This document shows, piece by piece, positions 5,777-11,259 of a DNA stretch of 64,000 bases. The stretch covers positions 1-64,000 of the forward strand of contig JAJZEC010000001.1 of assembly GCA_021805825.1 (NCBI GenBank), in the 5' to 3' direction. Source of the stretch: Pseudomonadota bacterium. Its GTDB lineage: Bacteria; Pseudomonadota; Gammaproteobacteria; Burkholderiales; Burkholderiaceae_C. The notes under the pieces were generated by a model, which had not been told where the DNA came from, searched no databases, and worked only from the letters and a program-made list of their open reading frames with translations. The position numbers were made by a program, and so were the translations under genes. Numbering within the stretch: the first letter of the stretch is position 1; every line of letters begins with the position of its first letter.

Positions 5777-6031
5777 CCTCTGCCCGAACCTTCCGCTCTC
5801 GACAGCGCAGGCGAAGTCCCGTACCCAGGTGGTGCCGTCGACGATCGCGTAATCGTGCGAACACCCGGTGGAGATTCGCGTCACGGTCAGCGTTCCTCGC
5901 TGTGCCAGAATCTCGTCGCTCCGTGGGTCGGACATATTGATCTCGCTGAGCTCAATGTCCTGGCGGGCAATGCCTTCCCGAAGCAATTCCATCCGGAATT
6001 CGGCCATTTCCCAAGGCTCGATCAGGGTCAT
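5753..6031 (-). CDS. Hypothetical protein
   Basis: 92 residues from the ATG at 6031 (MTLIEPWEMAEF); an ATG at 6100 would add 23 Arg/Val-rich residues. Neither has a clear ribosome binding site. The sequence is a plausible small soluble protein with an acidic centre (IELSEINMSDPRSDEILAQ) and a possible beta hairpin (GTLTVTRISTG, DYAIVDGTTWVRDF). I do not recognise the family. It overlaps the 3' end of uspA by 24 bases on the other strand and lies about 115 bases beyond the dksA-like gene on the same strand. Confidence 0.55.
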   Translation of the reverse strand: MTLIEPWEMAEFRMELLREGIARQDIELSEINMSDPRSDEILAQRGTLTVTRISTGCSHDYAIVDGTTWVRDFACAVESGRFGQRLRARIRG

Positions 6032-6145
6032 GCACACGATGCGTCTCCCACGTTTCCCGACGCGGTGCCTGACGGTCTCCGGCAAGCCTGGTTGCCACAC
6101 ATGCGCAGGACCCGGGTGTGTGCCGATGCAACGCTCATGGCATCT

Positions 6146-6580
6146 TCAGGCATGGTGGCGCCCGGGCGTGGACTCGAGGCGCGCTTGCTCCTTGAGACTT
6201 CGGGTCGCCGTCGGTCGTGCCATCAGTCGGGCCAGCCTGATGGGCTCGCCGGATTCCTCACAAAGCCCGTAACGGCCGTCATGGAGTCGTTCCAGTGCCT
6301 GGGCGATCGCCAGCAGATGCCGACGTTCGCGCTCGAGCACCCGAAGGTCCAGCGATTGCCCCTCCTCGATCGACGCGCGGTCGGATGGATCGGGAGTCTG
6401 CTCGGGCTCCTGCAGGTGGCTCGCGGTCTCGCGCGCGGACCGCAACATCGCGTCGCGCTCAGCCAGCAACAAGCGCTCGAAAACGGCCAATTGCACGGGT
6501 GTGAACGGGTGCAGGGGCCACGGCGCGCGTTGCCGGGCAGTTCCGCCTGGCGCGGTGGGGGTGTCGGGATGCTGCATCAT
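6146..6580 (-). CDS. DksA/TraR-like RNA polymerase regulator lacking the zinc finger
   Basis: 144 residues. A long helical hairpin (about 25-95) carries the tip motif DPSDRAS, matching the D-x2-D-x-A tip that DksA inserts into the RNA polymerase secondary channel. The C-terminal globular part has the GEPI and LMARPTA segments of the DksA fold, but only one cysteine (GLCEESGEPI) remains of the usual four zinc ligands, as in zinc-independent DksA paralogues of pseudomonads. Expected role: cooperation with or independent action beside ppGpp in tuning transcription in stress, possibly under zinc or oxidative limitation (inference). It is a monocistronic-looking minus-strand gene among stress genes. 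Confidence 0.85.
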   Translation of the reverse strand: MMQHPDTPTAPGGTARQRAPWPLHPFTPVQLAVFERLLLAERDAMLRSARETASHLQEPEQTPDPSDRASIEEGQSLDLRVLERERRHLLAIAQALERLHDGRYGLCEESGEPIRLARLMARPTATRSLKEQARLESTPGRHHA

Positions 6581-6707
6581 GAGGAACCTCGAACGGTTGG
6601 ACTCTGGATGGGTTCGCGCAGCCGGGTCGATGAAGTGTGCGGCCCGGATCGGGAATGCGGATCGCCAGCCAGGCCTCGAGCGAATTCAGGGCCTGGCGGG
6701 CAATGCC

Positions 6708-6890
6708 CTACTTGGAGGGCCGTGCCTTGTCGGGTACGGCAGGGCTGTCGGGCTGTTTCTGCGCAGGCGCCACGGCCTGCCTGTGGATGCCCTCGCGCTG
6801 CGGTTCCGTGGCCGACAGCGGTTTGCTGCCGATGTCGCTACTCTTGACGGAGGCGTCCTTGCTGCTGCTCTTGTCCTGATCGTGGTTCAT
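6708..6890 (-). CDS. Small hydrophilic hypothetical protein
   Basis: 60 residues beginning MNHDQDKSSSKDASVK, rich in Ser, Lys, Asp, Gln and Pro, without hydrophobic core, so probably disordered. The ATG at 6890 is preceded by AAGG seven bases upstream, which is why this start is chosen over longer forms. No known family. It lies between the dksA-like gene and the insertion element. It may be a stress-related disordered protein or a chance frame. Confidence 0.5.
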   Translation of the reverse strand: MNHDQDKSSSKDASVKSSDIGSKPLSATEPQREGIHRQAVAPAQKQPDSPAVPDKARPSK

Positions 6891-7072
6891 CGCTTGACCT
6901 TGGTGAGAACTCGAAGGTCCCGGGCCTGACCCGTGCCCCGGGAGATAGATGGCCGGGGACATGACCCGTGAGGTCGTCCGCGGTTTGCGGGGGGTTCCCG
7001 CCGCCGGTGCACGGAACCGGCTCGTGCGATTGCAGGGTAGGCACCACGCTCTGCGGTGTCGGTGCGATGACC

Positions 7073-7081
7073 AACATTGCC
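7073..7081. repeat. Target site duplication, left copy
   Basis: AACATTGCC directly abuts the outer end of the left inverted repeat. The same nine bases abut the right end at 9216-9224. A perfect 9-bp duplication indicates an integration by a DDE-type transposase that has not decayed. Confidence 0.9.
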
Positions 7082-7109
7082 CTAGCCGTTCTCTCAAAGA
7101 GTTGCTAAG
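7082..7109 (+). repeat. Left terminal inverted repeat (28 bp)
   Basis: Begins CTAGCCGTTCTCTC and ends TTGCTAAG. It matches the reverse complement of 9188-9215 at 27 of 28 positions; the one difference is C here against T there at position 14. It lies 17 bases beyond the transposase stop codon. Confidence 0.93.
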
Positions 7110-7126
7110 CCGCCACGGCCTCCCGC

Positions 7127-9136
7127 TTACGGCCCCTCTCGCACGGCGTGCAGAGGGGCTTTTCCTTGTGGAAGGTCGAACAGTTCCTCCGGCCAACTGG
7201 CTGCCTCGTCGGCCAACGACCGCGTCGTCTGGCCGTCCTTTGGCTTCGCGGGTGCTCGCCGCCTGTCTGGCAAGGGTGGCTCGTAGTAAATAATGTCGTC
7301 TGGCGTAATTCGCCCTTTCGCCAACCCCATTCGCATCGCCGGCGTCTTTCCGTCTTCGCCAACTTCACAGTAATTGAAGTAGACGCGAAAAATCTCGACA
7401 AGCTTTACGAGAACCGCGGGATTATAGGCGCTCTTCCCAAACCAAAGACGGCGCTCAGCGCTAGCACTGATGATTCCGCGCTCGGCAATGGTCAGCGCCC
7501 GGCGAACTTGCATGAAAAACCTGTCGACTGCGGTTAAGGACGCCCGCAGGTAAAGCTTCGCATGACGCTCTAGCTGCTCAGCTCGCTCACGCTCATCAGT
7601 CTTTATCTCGTCAATATCGGTAAGCCAGCAAATCATTTTATCCGGCTCTCGCATATCTGCGACGGGATGCGAAAACCAGCGGTCTTGCCACTGACCTAGG
7701 GGAGTAAGTCGATTGAGCTCCTCTCGGGCAAGTATTTGCATGGCCACCTTCTCCGTCACCTTATTTTCCTGGGCGACCTGCATCAATCGACGCTTGGACT
7801 TACTGACCAGGCTTCTCTTCTTGTCGACGGTCAAGTTCTTGGCAATCGTCACATAGAAGGCATCGGCGGTTCTGTTCCGGACCCGGTTTGGGACGCTCGT
7901 CATAATCGCCGCGCGCAGGCCAGACTCTTGGTCGATAAAAAACCGGATTTTCTGGGCCCTGTGCAGTAGCCGACTCACCAGCTGAATATGGGCGGTCATC
8001 ACACTCTGCTCATGCAGCAGCATGCCTTGAGCGGGGTGCTGTGACCTGGCGGACTCCAGGTCCCCATCCTCGATGTCTGCCCTCTCAAGGGCGTCCTCGT
8101 ACACGGCCTCTACCGCAGCCAGCGCGTCGCCTCGAGCTTCCGCCACCTTGGCCCTTCGGCGGGCCCGCCTGTCCTCTCGGGCAGCCGAGTCCTCCCAGTC
8201 TTGTGGTAGCCAGACTCTCGCATATCTGCGAAAGGGTTTTGAGAGGTGGTGGTCGCCAAACTTTGGAAGTTCTTCTAAGACCGCCTCTCGATTCATCGCT
8301 GGGTCAAAATTCACGTTCACCGCATAAACGTACCCAGTATCCTGGTCCGCACTCGCCAGGGAAAGCATGAGGGTATTTTTTCGATTCTCCTTGTCCGACC
8401 AATTGACGAGCAATTTTTGGCGGTCGACAGAAATGCACCTATAGCCAAGGTTCTCCAGCTCCGTCAATTTGCGTTCGCGCTCCCCAGCGAAAGCCTGGCA
8501 CTGGTCGTAGAAAAAATCGATGCGGTCGTAGAGGATGGTCGGCGATATACCGAGAACCTTGATAATTCTGCGCAGAGGCATGGAATTCATCAGGTGCTCG
8601 AATATGTCGAGGTTGCGATGAGTTTTTCGCTGCCTCTTGGTGGCTCGCCCGCCAAACGTAAAGATTTTTCGACATGCGCCGCACTTGAATCTCGGCGTTC
8701 CGTGGGCATTCACCCCGTATCGGGTATGGAGGCCTGCGCTTTCTTCATCGTCTTTGCCGAATAGCTTGCAGGCTTCGTTTTGACATACTGGTACGCGAGG
8801 GTCGAGGTATTTGCCGATGCGGAGCAGTTCTTCTGCGATAGCAAGATTGCTCTGCATGGGGAAAATCTCGTCGCAGAGCTTGCATCGAAGCGCAGGGAGG
8901 TTTTTACCGGTGGCGCAGACGATGTAATCGCCAGGCGTTGGCGAGGCGCCCTTGGCCCGACGTCGGCCGCGGCCAGTCTCGTTTCGAGGCGGCACGCCGA
9001 AATTGCCGCATCGGGGGTTGCGACAGAAGTTGACTTGGATGCTGCCTGCGGTCGGCGGGTACCGCCACGGCCACTTAGCGGCTCGCGGTTGCTCTTGGCG
9101 CTCCTGGCGCTCCAGAAGCGATTTCACCTTGGACAA
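7127..9136 (-). CDS. Putative transposase with two tandem zinc ribbons
   Basis: 669 residues from a TTG start. Two similar zinc ribbons open the protein: C38-x4-C43 with C85-x2-C88, and C118-x4-C123 with C152-x2-C155; each shows C-x-N-x2-C-x2-F-G then C-x2-C-x2-I-F. A helix-turn-helix-like stretch follows (about 176-205). Candidate catalytic acids are D238 (CISVDRQ) and D402 (FFIDQESGL); the third may be E552 or E561. The C-terminal segment YFNYCEVGEDGKTPAMRMGL resembles the tail of integrase-like transposases. A charged, Arg/Ala-rich insertion lies around 310-365. It is the only gene in an element with terminal repeats and a target duplication, which supports the role; the family assignment remains open. 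Confidence 0.8.
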   Translation of the reverse strand: MSKVKSLLERQERQEQPRAAKWPWRYPPTAGSIQVNFCRNPRCGNFGVPPRNETGRGRRRAKGASPTPGDYIVCATGKNLPALRCKLCDEIFPMQSNLAIAEELLRIGKYLDPRVPVCQNEACKLFGKDDEESAGLHTRYGVNAHGTPRFKCGACRKIFTFGGRATKRQRKTHRNLDIFEHLMNSMPLRRIIKVLGISPTILYDRIDFFYDQCQAFAGERERKLTELENLGYRCISVDRQKLLVNWSDKENRKNTLMLSLASADQDTGYVYAVNVNFDPAMNREAVLEELPKFGDHHLSKPFRRYARVWLPQDWEDSAAREDRRARRRAKVAEARGDALAAVEAVYEDALERADIEDGDLESARSQHPAQGMLLHEQSVMTAHIQLVSRLLHRAQKIRFFIDQESGLRAAIMTSVPNRVRNRTADAFYVTIAKNLTVDKKRSLVSKSKRRLMQVAQENKVTEKVAMQILAREELNRLTPLGQWQDRWFSHPVADMREPDKMICWLTDIDEIKTDERERAEQLERHAKLYLRASLTAVDRFFMQVRRALTIAERGIISASAERRLWFGKSAYNPAVLVKLVEIFRVYFNYCEVGEDGKTPAMRMGLAKGRITPDDIIYYEPPLPDRRRAPAKPKDGQTTRSLADEAASWPEELFDLPQGKAPLHAVREGP
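7132..7163 (+). terminator. Inward-facing terminator-like hairpin, left end of the element
   Basis: GCCCCTCT (7132-7139), one bulged C, GCAC, loop GGC, GTGC, then AGAGGGGC (7152-7159) followed by TTTT. Read rightwards it is a strong stem with a T run and would stop transcripts entering from the left flank, antisense to the transposase. It lies inside the last codons of the transposase gene. Confidence 0.6.
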
Positions 9137-9141
9137 AGAAA

Positions 9142-9164
9142 CGCCCCAGTTGTTGGCTGGGGCG
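9142..9164 (-). promoter_or_regulatory. Hairpin over the transposase ribosome binding site
   Basis: On the minus strand CGCCCCAG, a 7-base loop, CTGGGGCG, then TTTCTTTG. The 3' arm contains the only purine-rich stretch (GGGG) ahead of the TTG start at 9136, and the T-rich tail makes it terminator-like. Transcripts entering from the right flank would either stop or carry a masked ribosome site. Confidence 0.55.
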
Positions 9165-9187
9165 TAGTCTAGGCGGGCCCGGGGGGC

Positions 9188-9215
9188 CTTAGCAACTCTT
9201 TAAGAGAACGGCTAG
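9188..9215 (-). repeat. Right terminal inverted repeat (28 bp)
   Basis: Reverse complement starts CTAGCCGTTCTCTT and ends TTGCTAAG, matching the left repeat with one difference. It starts about 50 bases upstream of the transposase start, so it probably overlaps the promoter. Confidence 0.93.
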
Positions 9216-9224
9216 AACATTGCC
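9216..9224. repeat. Target site duplication, right copy
   Basis: AACATTGCC, identical to 7073-7081. Confidence 0.9.
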
Positions 9225-9412
9225 ATCCCTTTCGCCGGGACGGCATGCGCCAGGCCCGCTGCGCAGGGCGGTGTTCGCTGGCGCACATACACGCGCGGGG
9301 AGCAGGCCATATCTTGGGCCCGTACCTTTCGCGAGTGCCGGGCGGAACCCACCCGGCACTCGGTCTGCCCGGGGTCTCCCGAGCGCTGCCTGACAAGCCG
9401 GAAACACCCATC

Positions 9413-9568
9413 ATGCTCGGTACCGTTCTTCTGATCCTGCTCGTGCTCATGCTGCTCGGAGCCATCCCGGTGTGGCCCCATAGCCGCGGCTGGGGGTACG
9501 TACCCAGCGGCGGAATCGGTCTCGTCGCCGTCGTGATTGTGGTGTTGATCCTGCTGGGTCGGCTTTGA
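9413..9568 (+). CDS. DUF3309 small membrane protein
   Basis: 51 residues: a hydrophobic helix (MLGTVLLILLVLMLLGAIP), a short loop with WPHSRGWGYVPSGG, and a second helix (IGLVAVVIVVLILLGRL). This is the complete, typical form of DUF3309, a family of tiny two-helix inner-membrane proteins of unknown function common near stress genes. It is too short for most gene callers. It is followed 83 bases later by the kinase-like gene on the same strand. Confidence 0.85.
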   Translation: MLGTVLLILLVLMLLGAIPVWPHSRGWGYVPSGGIGLVAVVIVVLILLGRL

Positions 9569-9651
9569 CTCCACGGTGAGCCACGACACATCTGCGCATC
9601 TGCCGGCGTGCCGGTCTTGATGAAACATGCCTGGGCCACAGTGGAGCGGCC

Positions 9652-11259
9652 ATGACCGATGCGACCGATCGCGCCAACTCGCAGGCCGAGCTTGCGCAAC
9701 TGCAGGAAGACATCGAAGCGGCACGCAGGGTACTGAGCCGGCTTCTGCAACAGACGGTCACGGCCAGGATGACCGACCCACGGGTCGACGATTCGCGGGT
9801 GGTCCGCGTCGACGAGGTGCCGCTGCGCACGGCCAAGCTCGGCCAGGGCGGGCCCGCCGGGAAGGCGTCGGGCCAGGCGGAACGCCCGGCGCAGCCAGCG
9901 GTGCGCACGGGTTTGATGCCGCGCCAGAGCTGGCTCGAGCAGATCGCTCCCTGCCTCGCGTTGGCCCGGCGCCACAAGAGGGTGTTCGCGCTGCTCGATG
10001 TGGAACTGGAGCATTTCGCACAAATGCAGTCCGGCATGAGGCCCGAGGCCGCCGAGCTGCTGTTGCGCGAGCTTGCCGATCGTATCCGGGTGCAGGTCCG
10101 GGACTGCGACCTGACGCTCAGCCAGGGCAATGGGCAGTTCCTGGTCGCGCTGATGGAAATCACCAAGCCCGATGACGCTGCCGTGACCGCACGCCGCATC
10201 CAGACAGCCCTGGGTCGTCGAATTCAGGCTGGACAGCGCGAGCTGCGGTTCAGCGCGAGTATCGGCATCGGTGTGTTCCCGGAAAACGGCCAGCGCATGG
10301 AAGACCTGCTCGACGCCGCGGCGCGCTCGAAGCTCAAGGCGCGAGCGCCCGAAGGAAGGGCCCCGCGAGCGGAGCATGATTCCGGCGACGGTGCCGGAGC
10401 AGACTTGCCGTCGGAGCGCCAAACCGTCGGGCAAGGTTGGCGTTCCGATCCGAACACGCGAATGTCCGCCGAGCCGTCGGCCGAGGACGCCTGGCTTCGG
10501 GATGCGAATGAGCGCCTGGTCATGGCCGTCCTGGATGCACGGGAGCTCAGCGACGCCTTGTTGCAGGCGCAGCAGCGGCATGTGGACCTGCTGGCCGTCA
10601 TCGCGGAGGAACTCCGCGATCCACAGGCGCCCGTGCGCGTGGTGGCGTCGTTGCTGGGAAGCACGCAGGTCGACCAGGCTCTGCTGTCCCACGTGCAGTC
10701 CATGCTCGACGAGCAGATGCTGCGCATGCAGCGCATGCTCGAACGCCTGGAGGGGGTGGTGGGCGCTCGCCTGAATCCGTTGACCCTGGCGCGCGAGAGC
10801 ATCGATCTGCGCGACGCGGTTCATAAGGCGGTGCGATCGGCGCAGCCGGCAGTGCGCGCGCGCGGCCAGAACCTGGCCCTTCAGCTCGGCGAACAGCCGC
10901 TGGACGTGATGGGCGACCCGGAACGTCTGATCCAGGTCCTGGCGAACCTGCTCGACAACGCCTCGAAGTATTCGGGGGAGGGCGCGACCATCACCGTTGG
11001 GGGCTCCACGGTGCACGACAGCGTCGTGGTGGAGGTGCGCGACAACGGCATCGGCATGTCTGCGGGCGCGATCTCGAGGATTTTCGCGCCCTTCTGGCAC
11101 GACGCCGAGGCCCTGGCCGTGGACGGCGCCGGAATCGGCCTCGGACTCACGGTCGTGCGCAGGCTGGTCGAGGCCCACGGAGGAACCGTGCAGGCCTTCA
11201 GTGCCGGGCGGGGCCTGGGAAGCCGCTTCGTGGTGACCCTGCCCGGGGCGCCGGCCTGA
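9652..11259 (+). CDS. Degenerate GGDEF plus histidine-kinase-like protein lacking the phosphoacceptor His
   Basis: 535 residues, no membrane segment. Residues about 95-225 have a diguanylate-cyclase fold (SIGIGVFPENGQRMEDLL is intact), but the GGDEF signature is replaced by QGNGQF and the metal-binding region reads LLDVELEHF, so it should not make c-di-GMP. A linker leads to a kinase-like module (about 285-535). The H-box aligns exactly as LLAVIAEELRDPQAP, with Glu319 where the histidine should be. The ATP-binding domain keeps its N box (LLDNASKYS), G1 (DNGIGM) and G2 (GAGIGLGL). It therefore looks like an ATP-binding pseudokinase or signalling scaffold. The ATG at 9652 is the first good start. 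It converges on the kaiC-like gene. Confidence 0.82.
   Translation: MTDATDRANSQAELAQLQEDIEAARRVLSRLLQQTVTARMTDPRVDDSRVVRVDEVPLRTAKLGQGGPAGKASGQAERPAQPAVRTGLMPRQSWLEQIAPCLALARRHKRVFALLDVELEHFAQMQSGMRPEAAELLLRELADRIRVQVRDCDLTLSQGNGQFLVALMEITKPDDAAVTARRIQTALGRRIQAGQRELRFSASIGIGVFPENGQRMEDLLDAAARSKLKARAPEGRAPRAEHDSGDGAGADLPSERQTVGQGWRSDPNTRMSAEPSAEDAWLRDANERLVMAVLDARELSDALLQAQQRHVDLLAVIAEELRDPQAPVRVVASLLGSTQVDQALLSHVQSMLDEQMLRMQRMLERLEGVVGARLNPLTLARESIDLRDAVHKAVRSAQPAVRARGQNLALQLGEQPLDVMGDPERLIQVLANLLDNASKYSGEGATITVGGSTVHDSVVVEVRDNGIGMSAGAISRIFAPFWHDAEALAVDGAGIGLGLTVVRRLVEAHGGTVQAFSAGRGLGSRFVVTLPGAPA

Follow-up and report, generated by a model that had tools for sequence, protein, structure and literature searches.

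A cargo-free insertion element, very likely of an unnamed and widespread transposon family that targets terminator loops

The window analysed here, a 64,000-nucleotide stretch of a Burkholderiales genome, contains a complete insertion element of 2134 bp at positions 7082-9215. Its terminal inverted repeats, located at 7082-7109 on the 3′ side of the transposase gene (CTAGCCGTTCTCTCAAAGAGTTGCTAAG) and at 9188-9215 on the 5′ side, are equal at 27 of 28 bases, and the 9-bp sequence AACATTGCC is found on both sides of the element (7073-7081 and 9216-9224). A single uninterrupted frame on the minus strand (7127-9136) begins with a TTG start codon and encodes a transposase of 669 amino acids. This frame leaves 45 bp up to the far end of the element, indicating that the window copy is without cargo. 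A preliminary description made from the sequence had reported the 28-bp ends, the 9-bp target duplication and the 669-residue protein, and each was recovered exactly as described, the frame having no internal stop. The stress-gene setting of the element, to which that description had drawn attention, plays no visible role.

The same description had called the insertion complete and probably recent, and had proposed a search for empty sites in related genomes. This search located an empty site in a genome of the same genus (G681, contig 46; locus L159), where the joined 1000-nt flanks of the window element align without gaps at 99.6% identity. Here the left and right flanks overlap by exactly 9 nt, equivalent to one copy of AACATTGCC, so that both the insertion and the duplication are direct readings. 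The transposase profile found no match in G681, and among the 28 same-genus genomes searched the whole 600-nt region was present in G681 alone, besides the window's own genome. The empty site rules out chance repeats and an old fossil as explanations, and the exact element ends rule out a wandering coordinate. Thus, the window copy is a complete and recent insertion, as had been supposed. Separately, it was observed that window positions 6001-10500 are 97-99% identical between the window's genome and G681, and that the joined flanks were matched at all in 4 of the 28 genus genomes (the window's own included); judged from these matches, the region around the insertion may have been acquired by horizontal transfer.

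To describe the transposase, the window protein was aligned with relatives from 70 loci of a genome scan, giving 71 members of 559-669 amino acids. Eight cysteines are kept in 71 of 71 members. Cys38, Cys43, Cys85 and Cys88 (within 8873-9025, minus strand) form a proposed first zinc site, whereas Cys118, Cys123, Cys152 and Cys155 (within 8672-8785, minus strand) belong to a stretch that both models and alignment identify as an IS1-like zinc ribbon, followed by a helix-turn-helix. An AlphaFold2 model of the protein (pLDDT 89, pTM 0.88) predicts that the core adopts a DDE-type RNase H fold, the order of strands and helices fitting such a fold in which an insertion precedes the last catalytic helix. 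In this model Asp238 (codon 8423-8425, minus strand; 71/71) lies in the first core strand, Asp402 (7931-7933, minus strand; 68/71) ends the strand formed by residues 396-402, and Asp538 (7523-7525, minus strand; 70/71) sits in the helix behind the insertion domain. Based on this conservation and on the secondary-structure positions, rather than on measured distances, we propose that Asp238-Asp402-Asp538 is probably the catalytic triad. The third acid is the uncertain one: Glu552 (7481-7483, minus strand) is also well kept (64/71) and is the alternative, and the divergent relative L007 has an asparagine at position 538. The window element is probably still functional.

The window protein did not pass the cut-off of any Pfam or NCBIfam model, in keeping with the earlier remark that it has no obvious family, and among the models searched no named family fits. 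Against the NCBIfam IS1 model it scored 28.4 bits (cut-off 100) over residues 137-212 only. Of the IS256 or Mutator-like type it matched only a zinc domain, over 21 residues (17.7 bits against a cut-off of 27), and no IS256 sequence model was reached above its cut-off. Across the 71 members, the IS1 model was matched by 70 and the IS1/IS1595 zinc domain by 68 at E 0.01 or better (the window protein falling below the cut-off for the latter), the IS256-type zinc domain by 64, the IS1249 model by 38 and the ISL3 model by 13 at E 0.01, the last two counts being irrespective of where in the protein the match falls. None of the 11 Pfam families matched by the 71 members at E 0.01 is a catalytic-domain model.

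These model matches, together with the 9-bp duplications that are also made by IS1, bear on whether the family is a divergent branch of IS1 with an enlarged single-ORF transposase, a kinship at which the preliminary description had hinted. The hint holds for the zinc-ribbon and helix-turn-helix region and not for the catalytic domain. Compared by hhalign with a profile of seven IS1-like proteins, the family aligned in the zinc-ribbon/helix-turn-helix columns (probability 93.7) and nowhere else, although this IS1 profile is small, two of its proteins (L111 and L139) being without the last part of the catalytic domain, and a deeper profile could show kinship. Moreover, the best match of the predicted fold in the PDB was the transposase of ISCth4 (E 5.7e-4), which we take to be of the IS256 type, and IS1 structures were absent from the 50 fold matches listed. 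The ISCth4 match is itself weak, the first five rows giving target-normalised TM values of 0.35-0.44 with an rmsd of 9-17 Å. Considering the partial match of the window protein and its single 669-residue frame, membership of IS1 appears improbable. Searching BFVD by fold gave a single match with E at or below 0.001, which was to an IS4-type transposase. A sequence search of solved structures with the single protein gave no match, and the profile matches to solved structures (60 of 147 listed) were zinc-finger proteins aligned to the zinc region, which carry no meaning.

Relatives of the transposase were detected in a broad range of bacteria. A tblastn search identified 21 plasmid records with relatives at 20-39% identity, in which the corresponding region was annotated as a hypothetical protein (eight records), lactate dehydrogenase (four), an insertion element protein (one) or not at all (eight). 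A scan of genome contigs detected 147 relatives. The best 80, which were retained, derive mostly from Pseudomonadota and Thermodesulfobacteriota, many of them metagenome bins, and the labels Nitrospirota, Acidobacteriota, Methylomirabilota, Myxococcota and Bacillota each account for one or two loci. One scan of a viral collection found a single relative. Counting the window's own genome in every case, matches were found in 3 of 300 genomes of the order, in 14 of 299 genomes of the taxonomic family (several being fragments or N-terminal matches only) and in 34 of 398 genomes of the phylum. Among these 34, only six matched near full length over the profile (G000, G344, G349, G849, G987 and G1080), and eight genomes of one genus carried a shorter relative of ~500 amino acids that is probably of the Vibrio type discussed below. 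This is a widespread bacterial transposon family that is rare per genome and easily overlooked. We found no name for it among Pfam and NCBIfam models, and searches of open-licence PMC papers brought up no description of it. In a quick tree the window protein grouped with L012 (support 99) and then with L013 (support 99).

To define the element ends, 92 starting loci (L001-L092) were inspected and 18 were refetched with longer flanks, of which 12 were resolved (L093, L095, L098, L101, L107 and L110 gave no result). Both ends together with a target duplication of 9 bp (31 elements) or 10 bp (16 elements) were found for 47 of the 92 starting loci, the duplication of L018 containing one mismatch. 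Left out of this set were L017 (same element and flanks as L018), L059 (replaced by L100), L054 and L071 (no convincing right end) and elements without a duplication; the other starting loci had only one end, reached the contig end or showed no end. The 47 elements gave the end consensus CnAGCCGtTcnnttAAngTGTTGA, and the two ends of each element agreed at a median of 25 of 26 bp (lowest 15).

The nearest relatives of the window element, L012 and L013, have both ends present and the duplication absent, and L034 and L056 likewise have intact ends and no duplication. The flanks of several such elements resemble half-terminators, with an A-tract or a T-tract, and at L034:3693-6608 the two flanks look like the two halves of a single hairpin stem whose loop sequence differs; elements of this kind are perhaps recombinants between copies. 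In three cases (L041, L042 and L057) the contig as a whole runs from one element end to the other, as expected for a collapsed repeat. At L095, in one Methylomirabilota genome, two family members lie head to tail with their match ends ~175 nt apart.

The search for duplications was blind to hairpins, and testing the duplicated sites for hairpins is therefore independent of how they were found. Centred hairpins, defined as scoring 6 or more with the loop centre within 1 nt of the duplication centre, were present at 33 of the 47 sites and at 1001 (1.2%) of 81,647 control positions taken from the same loci. At a score of 8 or more, they were present at 31 of the 47 sites compared with 120 of the 81,647 control positions (0.15%), and controls restricted to positions outside ORFs gave 192 of 11,900 (1.6%) at score 6. 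This stricter test supersedes an earlier one with a looser centre, in which 23 of 35 sites reached p 0.05 or less. At most positions of the stem, bases paired more often within a site than across different sites (in 9-bp sites, for example, 76% within and 39% across sites at the fifth position from the centre), and A-tracts were located upstream and T-tracts downstream of the stem. By rough ORF calling, 22 of the 29 hairpin sites with sufficient flank have an ORF end 20-60 nt away, while 13 of the 29 are between convergent ORFs and 2 are inside a called ORF. For L047, a flank search of 99 genomes returned ten Pseudomonas loci, and in each of the three examined the hairpin split by the element was uninterrupted after the same gene. 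By these features, the target sites of the family look like intrinsic terminators.

The hairpins could conceivably be a by-product of a transposase that prefers the A-tract, GC-rich and T-tract composition of intergenic DNA that terminators share. In support of this, there are strong A- and T-tracts some 10-17 positions away from the centre, where even unrelated sites show much A-T pairing with one another, and 14 of the 47 sites, that of the window included, fail the centred-hairpin test. However, the GC stem pairs well above the between-site level at most positions, and the duplication is centred on the dyad at far more of the 47 sites than in controls taken 20-60 nt behind ORF ends, where 37 of 1,869 positions (2.0%) had a centred hairpin. 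We consider a preference for composition rather unlikely, and favour the hairpin as the feature to which insertion is directed. Among the failing sites, a hairpin can be seen by eye at L004 and L105, displaced from the centre by a few nt, and an imperfect one at L043 and L070; the remaining ten (L001, which is the window, L005, L006, L008, L018, L026, L030, L033, L073 and L076) are without a hairpin, indicating that hairpins are preferred but not required.

The site occupied by the window copy is an ordinary one without a hairpin (score 1; p 0.64 in the earlier, looser-centred test), and the claim of hairpin targeting for this copy rests on kinship with its relatives. Its location, and the single match to the transposase in the 110-contig genome of the window, could indicate that the copy was placed by another route, being itself inactive or having been mobilised by another transposase. 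Yet its frame is open, none of the eight cysteines or the proposed acids is missing, its repeats and 9-bp duplication are clean, and other members with open frames (e.g. L030 and L033) also occupy sites without hairpins. Placement by another route is thus very improbable, and insertion by its own transposase is the reading retained here.

While 13 of the 47 elements are under 2.3 kb, the other 34 range from 2.4 to 13.6 kb, the extra DNA separating the transposase gene from the far end. A selective scan of the cargo compared 50 proteins with Pfam, among them proteins of L042, L057, L041, L014, L021 and L093, for which no duplication was verified, and 20 entries with PADLOC, leaving out L008, L019, L023, L053, L069 and L084 and covering several others in part. 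As a raw count from this selective scan, 19 of the 34 elements above 2.3 kb matched restriction-modification, toxin-antitoxin or abortive-infection families. In 15 of them the match is to a DNA methylase or restriction family: a D12 methylase with NotI (L016), N6 methylases (L026 and L047, with a specificity subunit matched in L026 and its partner in L047 a BLAST relative), a methylase with a BsuBI/PstI enzyme (L040), a type III system (L099), large single-chain methylases (L103-L106, L104 being called type IIG by PADLOC), type I systems (L108 and L109) and further members of these families (L029, L033, L048 and L094). The four further elements encode HipA (L073 and L074), a Fic protein (L050) and part of AbiEii (L076). 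Elements without a verified duplication carried AbiE (L014), an N-terminal domain of a type I R subunit (L041) and large methylases (L042 and L093). Other cargo included an RND efflux system (L100), a P-type ATPase beside the methylase of L105, an exonuclease (L037) and, by eye, metabolic-looking frames (L097), and the last ten cargo proteins compared with Pfam belonged mostly to unrelated families or to none.

Nearly identical transposases were found with different cargo in two pairs of elements, L014 (AbiE) with L073 (HipA) and L041 with L047, which suggests that cargo may be exchangeable. The cargo operon at L102:3085-7428, within a 6.5-kb element, encodes DUF4268 and DUF6035/DUF7829/DUF7830 proteins together with a NERD nuclease domain; DUF6035 and DUF7830 recur in L050 beside the Fic protein, and the operon is possibly an undescribed defence system.

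We conclude with considerable confidence that the window element is a minimal, cargo-free member of an unnamed and widespread family that targets terminator loops with a 9- or 10-bp stagger. The proposed mechanism would involve one large transposase, in which tandem zinc ribbons and a helix-turn-helix are combined with a DDE-type RNase H core (probably D238-D402-D538), that binds inverted ends of ~23-28 bp of the type C-A/T-AGCCGTT and joins them to target DNA with this stagger. A transposase dimer holding two symmetric ends would attack a target of twofold symmetry, and a terminator hairpin, either extruded or as palindromic duplex, could supply that symmetry while its loop takes the 9-10 bp stagger; the usual target would then be the loop of an intrinsic terminator, cut symmetrically about the dyad. 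The zinc ribbons may recognise the hairpin. With a terminator loop as target, insertion falls just behind genes, which makes the site cheap for the host, and the cargo may owe its expression to read-through. Any DNA lying between the transposase gene and the element's far end would be carried along, in many members as a compact restriction-modification or toxin-antitoxin module.

A relative of the transposase was also observed in Vibrionaceae replicons, where a single frame of ~493 amino acids lies behind deoD in five loci from Photobacterium, Salinivibrio and Vibrio (L009:1468-2949, L174:2989-4455 and the matching stretches of L175, L176 and L177). The deoD gene is annotated in one locus and sequence-matched in the other four. 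Their identity to L009, the copy from Photobacterium, is 50-63%, and in four Salinivibrio records the relative is annotated as lactate dehydrogenase. All eight cysteines are kept, whereas Asp238 is replaced by P, S, K, P and E in the five loci and Asp402 by P in all five, with Asp538 kept in L009 only. This relative looks domesticated, conservation without the catalytic residues indicating a putative host function that is perhaps DNA hairpin binding.

The window copy alone is ordinary, and the larger finding lies in the targets and cargo of its relatives. We tentatively suggest, with somewhat less than even confidence, a wider picture in which an undescribed family lands in terminator loops and shuttles defence and toxin-antitoxin modules, while a catalytically dead Vibrionaceae descendant keeps the hairpin- or terminator-binding part for its host. 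Terminator loops would be a target that does no harm, occurs behind a great many genes and has no fixed sequence. If this picture is correct, modules would be placed behind genes and be expressible by read-through with no gene broken, and terminator loops would be reached by a protein-only route. It would offer one answer to the old question of how unrelated bacteria acquire small restriction-modification and toxin-antitoxin modules from one another, and it may explain the neat placement of such modules between genes.

Transposons that carry cargo and transposons that have preferred targets are known in kind. The family shares with IS1 a zinc-ribbon and helix-turn-helix N-terminal region and duplications of about 9 bp. 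IS1 elements are shorter than 1 kb and have two short, overlapping frames, in contrast to the one frame of 559-669 amino acids found here and the 2134 bp of the window element. IS1595 makes an 8-bp target duplication, unlike the 9 bp (31/47) or 10 bp (16/47) of the present family, and its catalytic domain, presumably Pfam PF12762, was absent from the 11 Pfam families matched by the 71 members, so that membership of IS1595 was rejected.

Regarding expression signals as targets, the IS256/Mutator-like group provides the closest solved fold (ISCth4), albeit as a weak match, and according to Guerillot et al. 2014 (PMC3942029) Mutator-like DDE elements (p-MULT) target sigma-A promoters. These aim at the promoter and the present family at the gene end, both being expression signals. 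REP-targeting insertion sequences (Tobes and Pareja 2006, PMC1525189) insert into extragenic palindromes as the present family does; however, REP targets are repeat families, whereas the hairpin arms used here differ between sites. Group IIC introns are likewise mobile elements aimed at DNA stem-loops (PMC10190682), but they are retroelements with a ribozyme that insert beside the stem, and they lack a DDE transposase.

IS1272/TnSha1, of the IS1182 family, targets hairpins of which several were confirmed as transcription terminators, shows no primary sequence specificity for its target and, as TnSha1, moves a passenger gene (Furi et al. 2016, PMC4923244). Its insertion produces no target duplication and deletes part of the stem, whereas the present family makes a 9-10 bp duplication centred on the loop. 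Membership of IS1182 (IS1272 type) was rejected on the duplications in 47 elements, and an IS1182-type catalytic model was not among the 11 Pfam families of the 71 members. Searches of open-licence PMC papers likewise brought up no description of a terminator-targeting transposon that duplicates its target. As far as those papers show, the transposase family, the centred 9-10 bp loop duplication and the frequent defence cargo are new.
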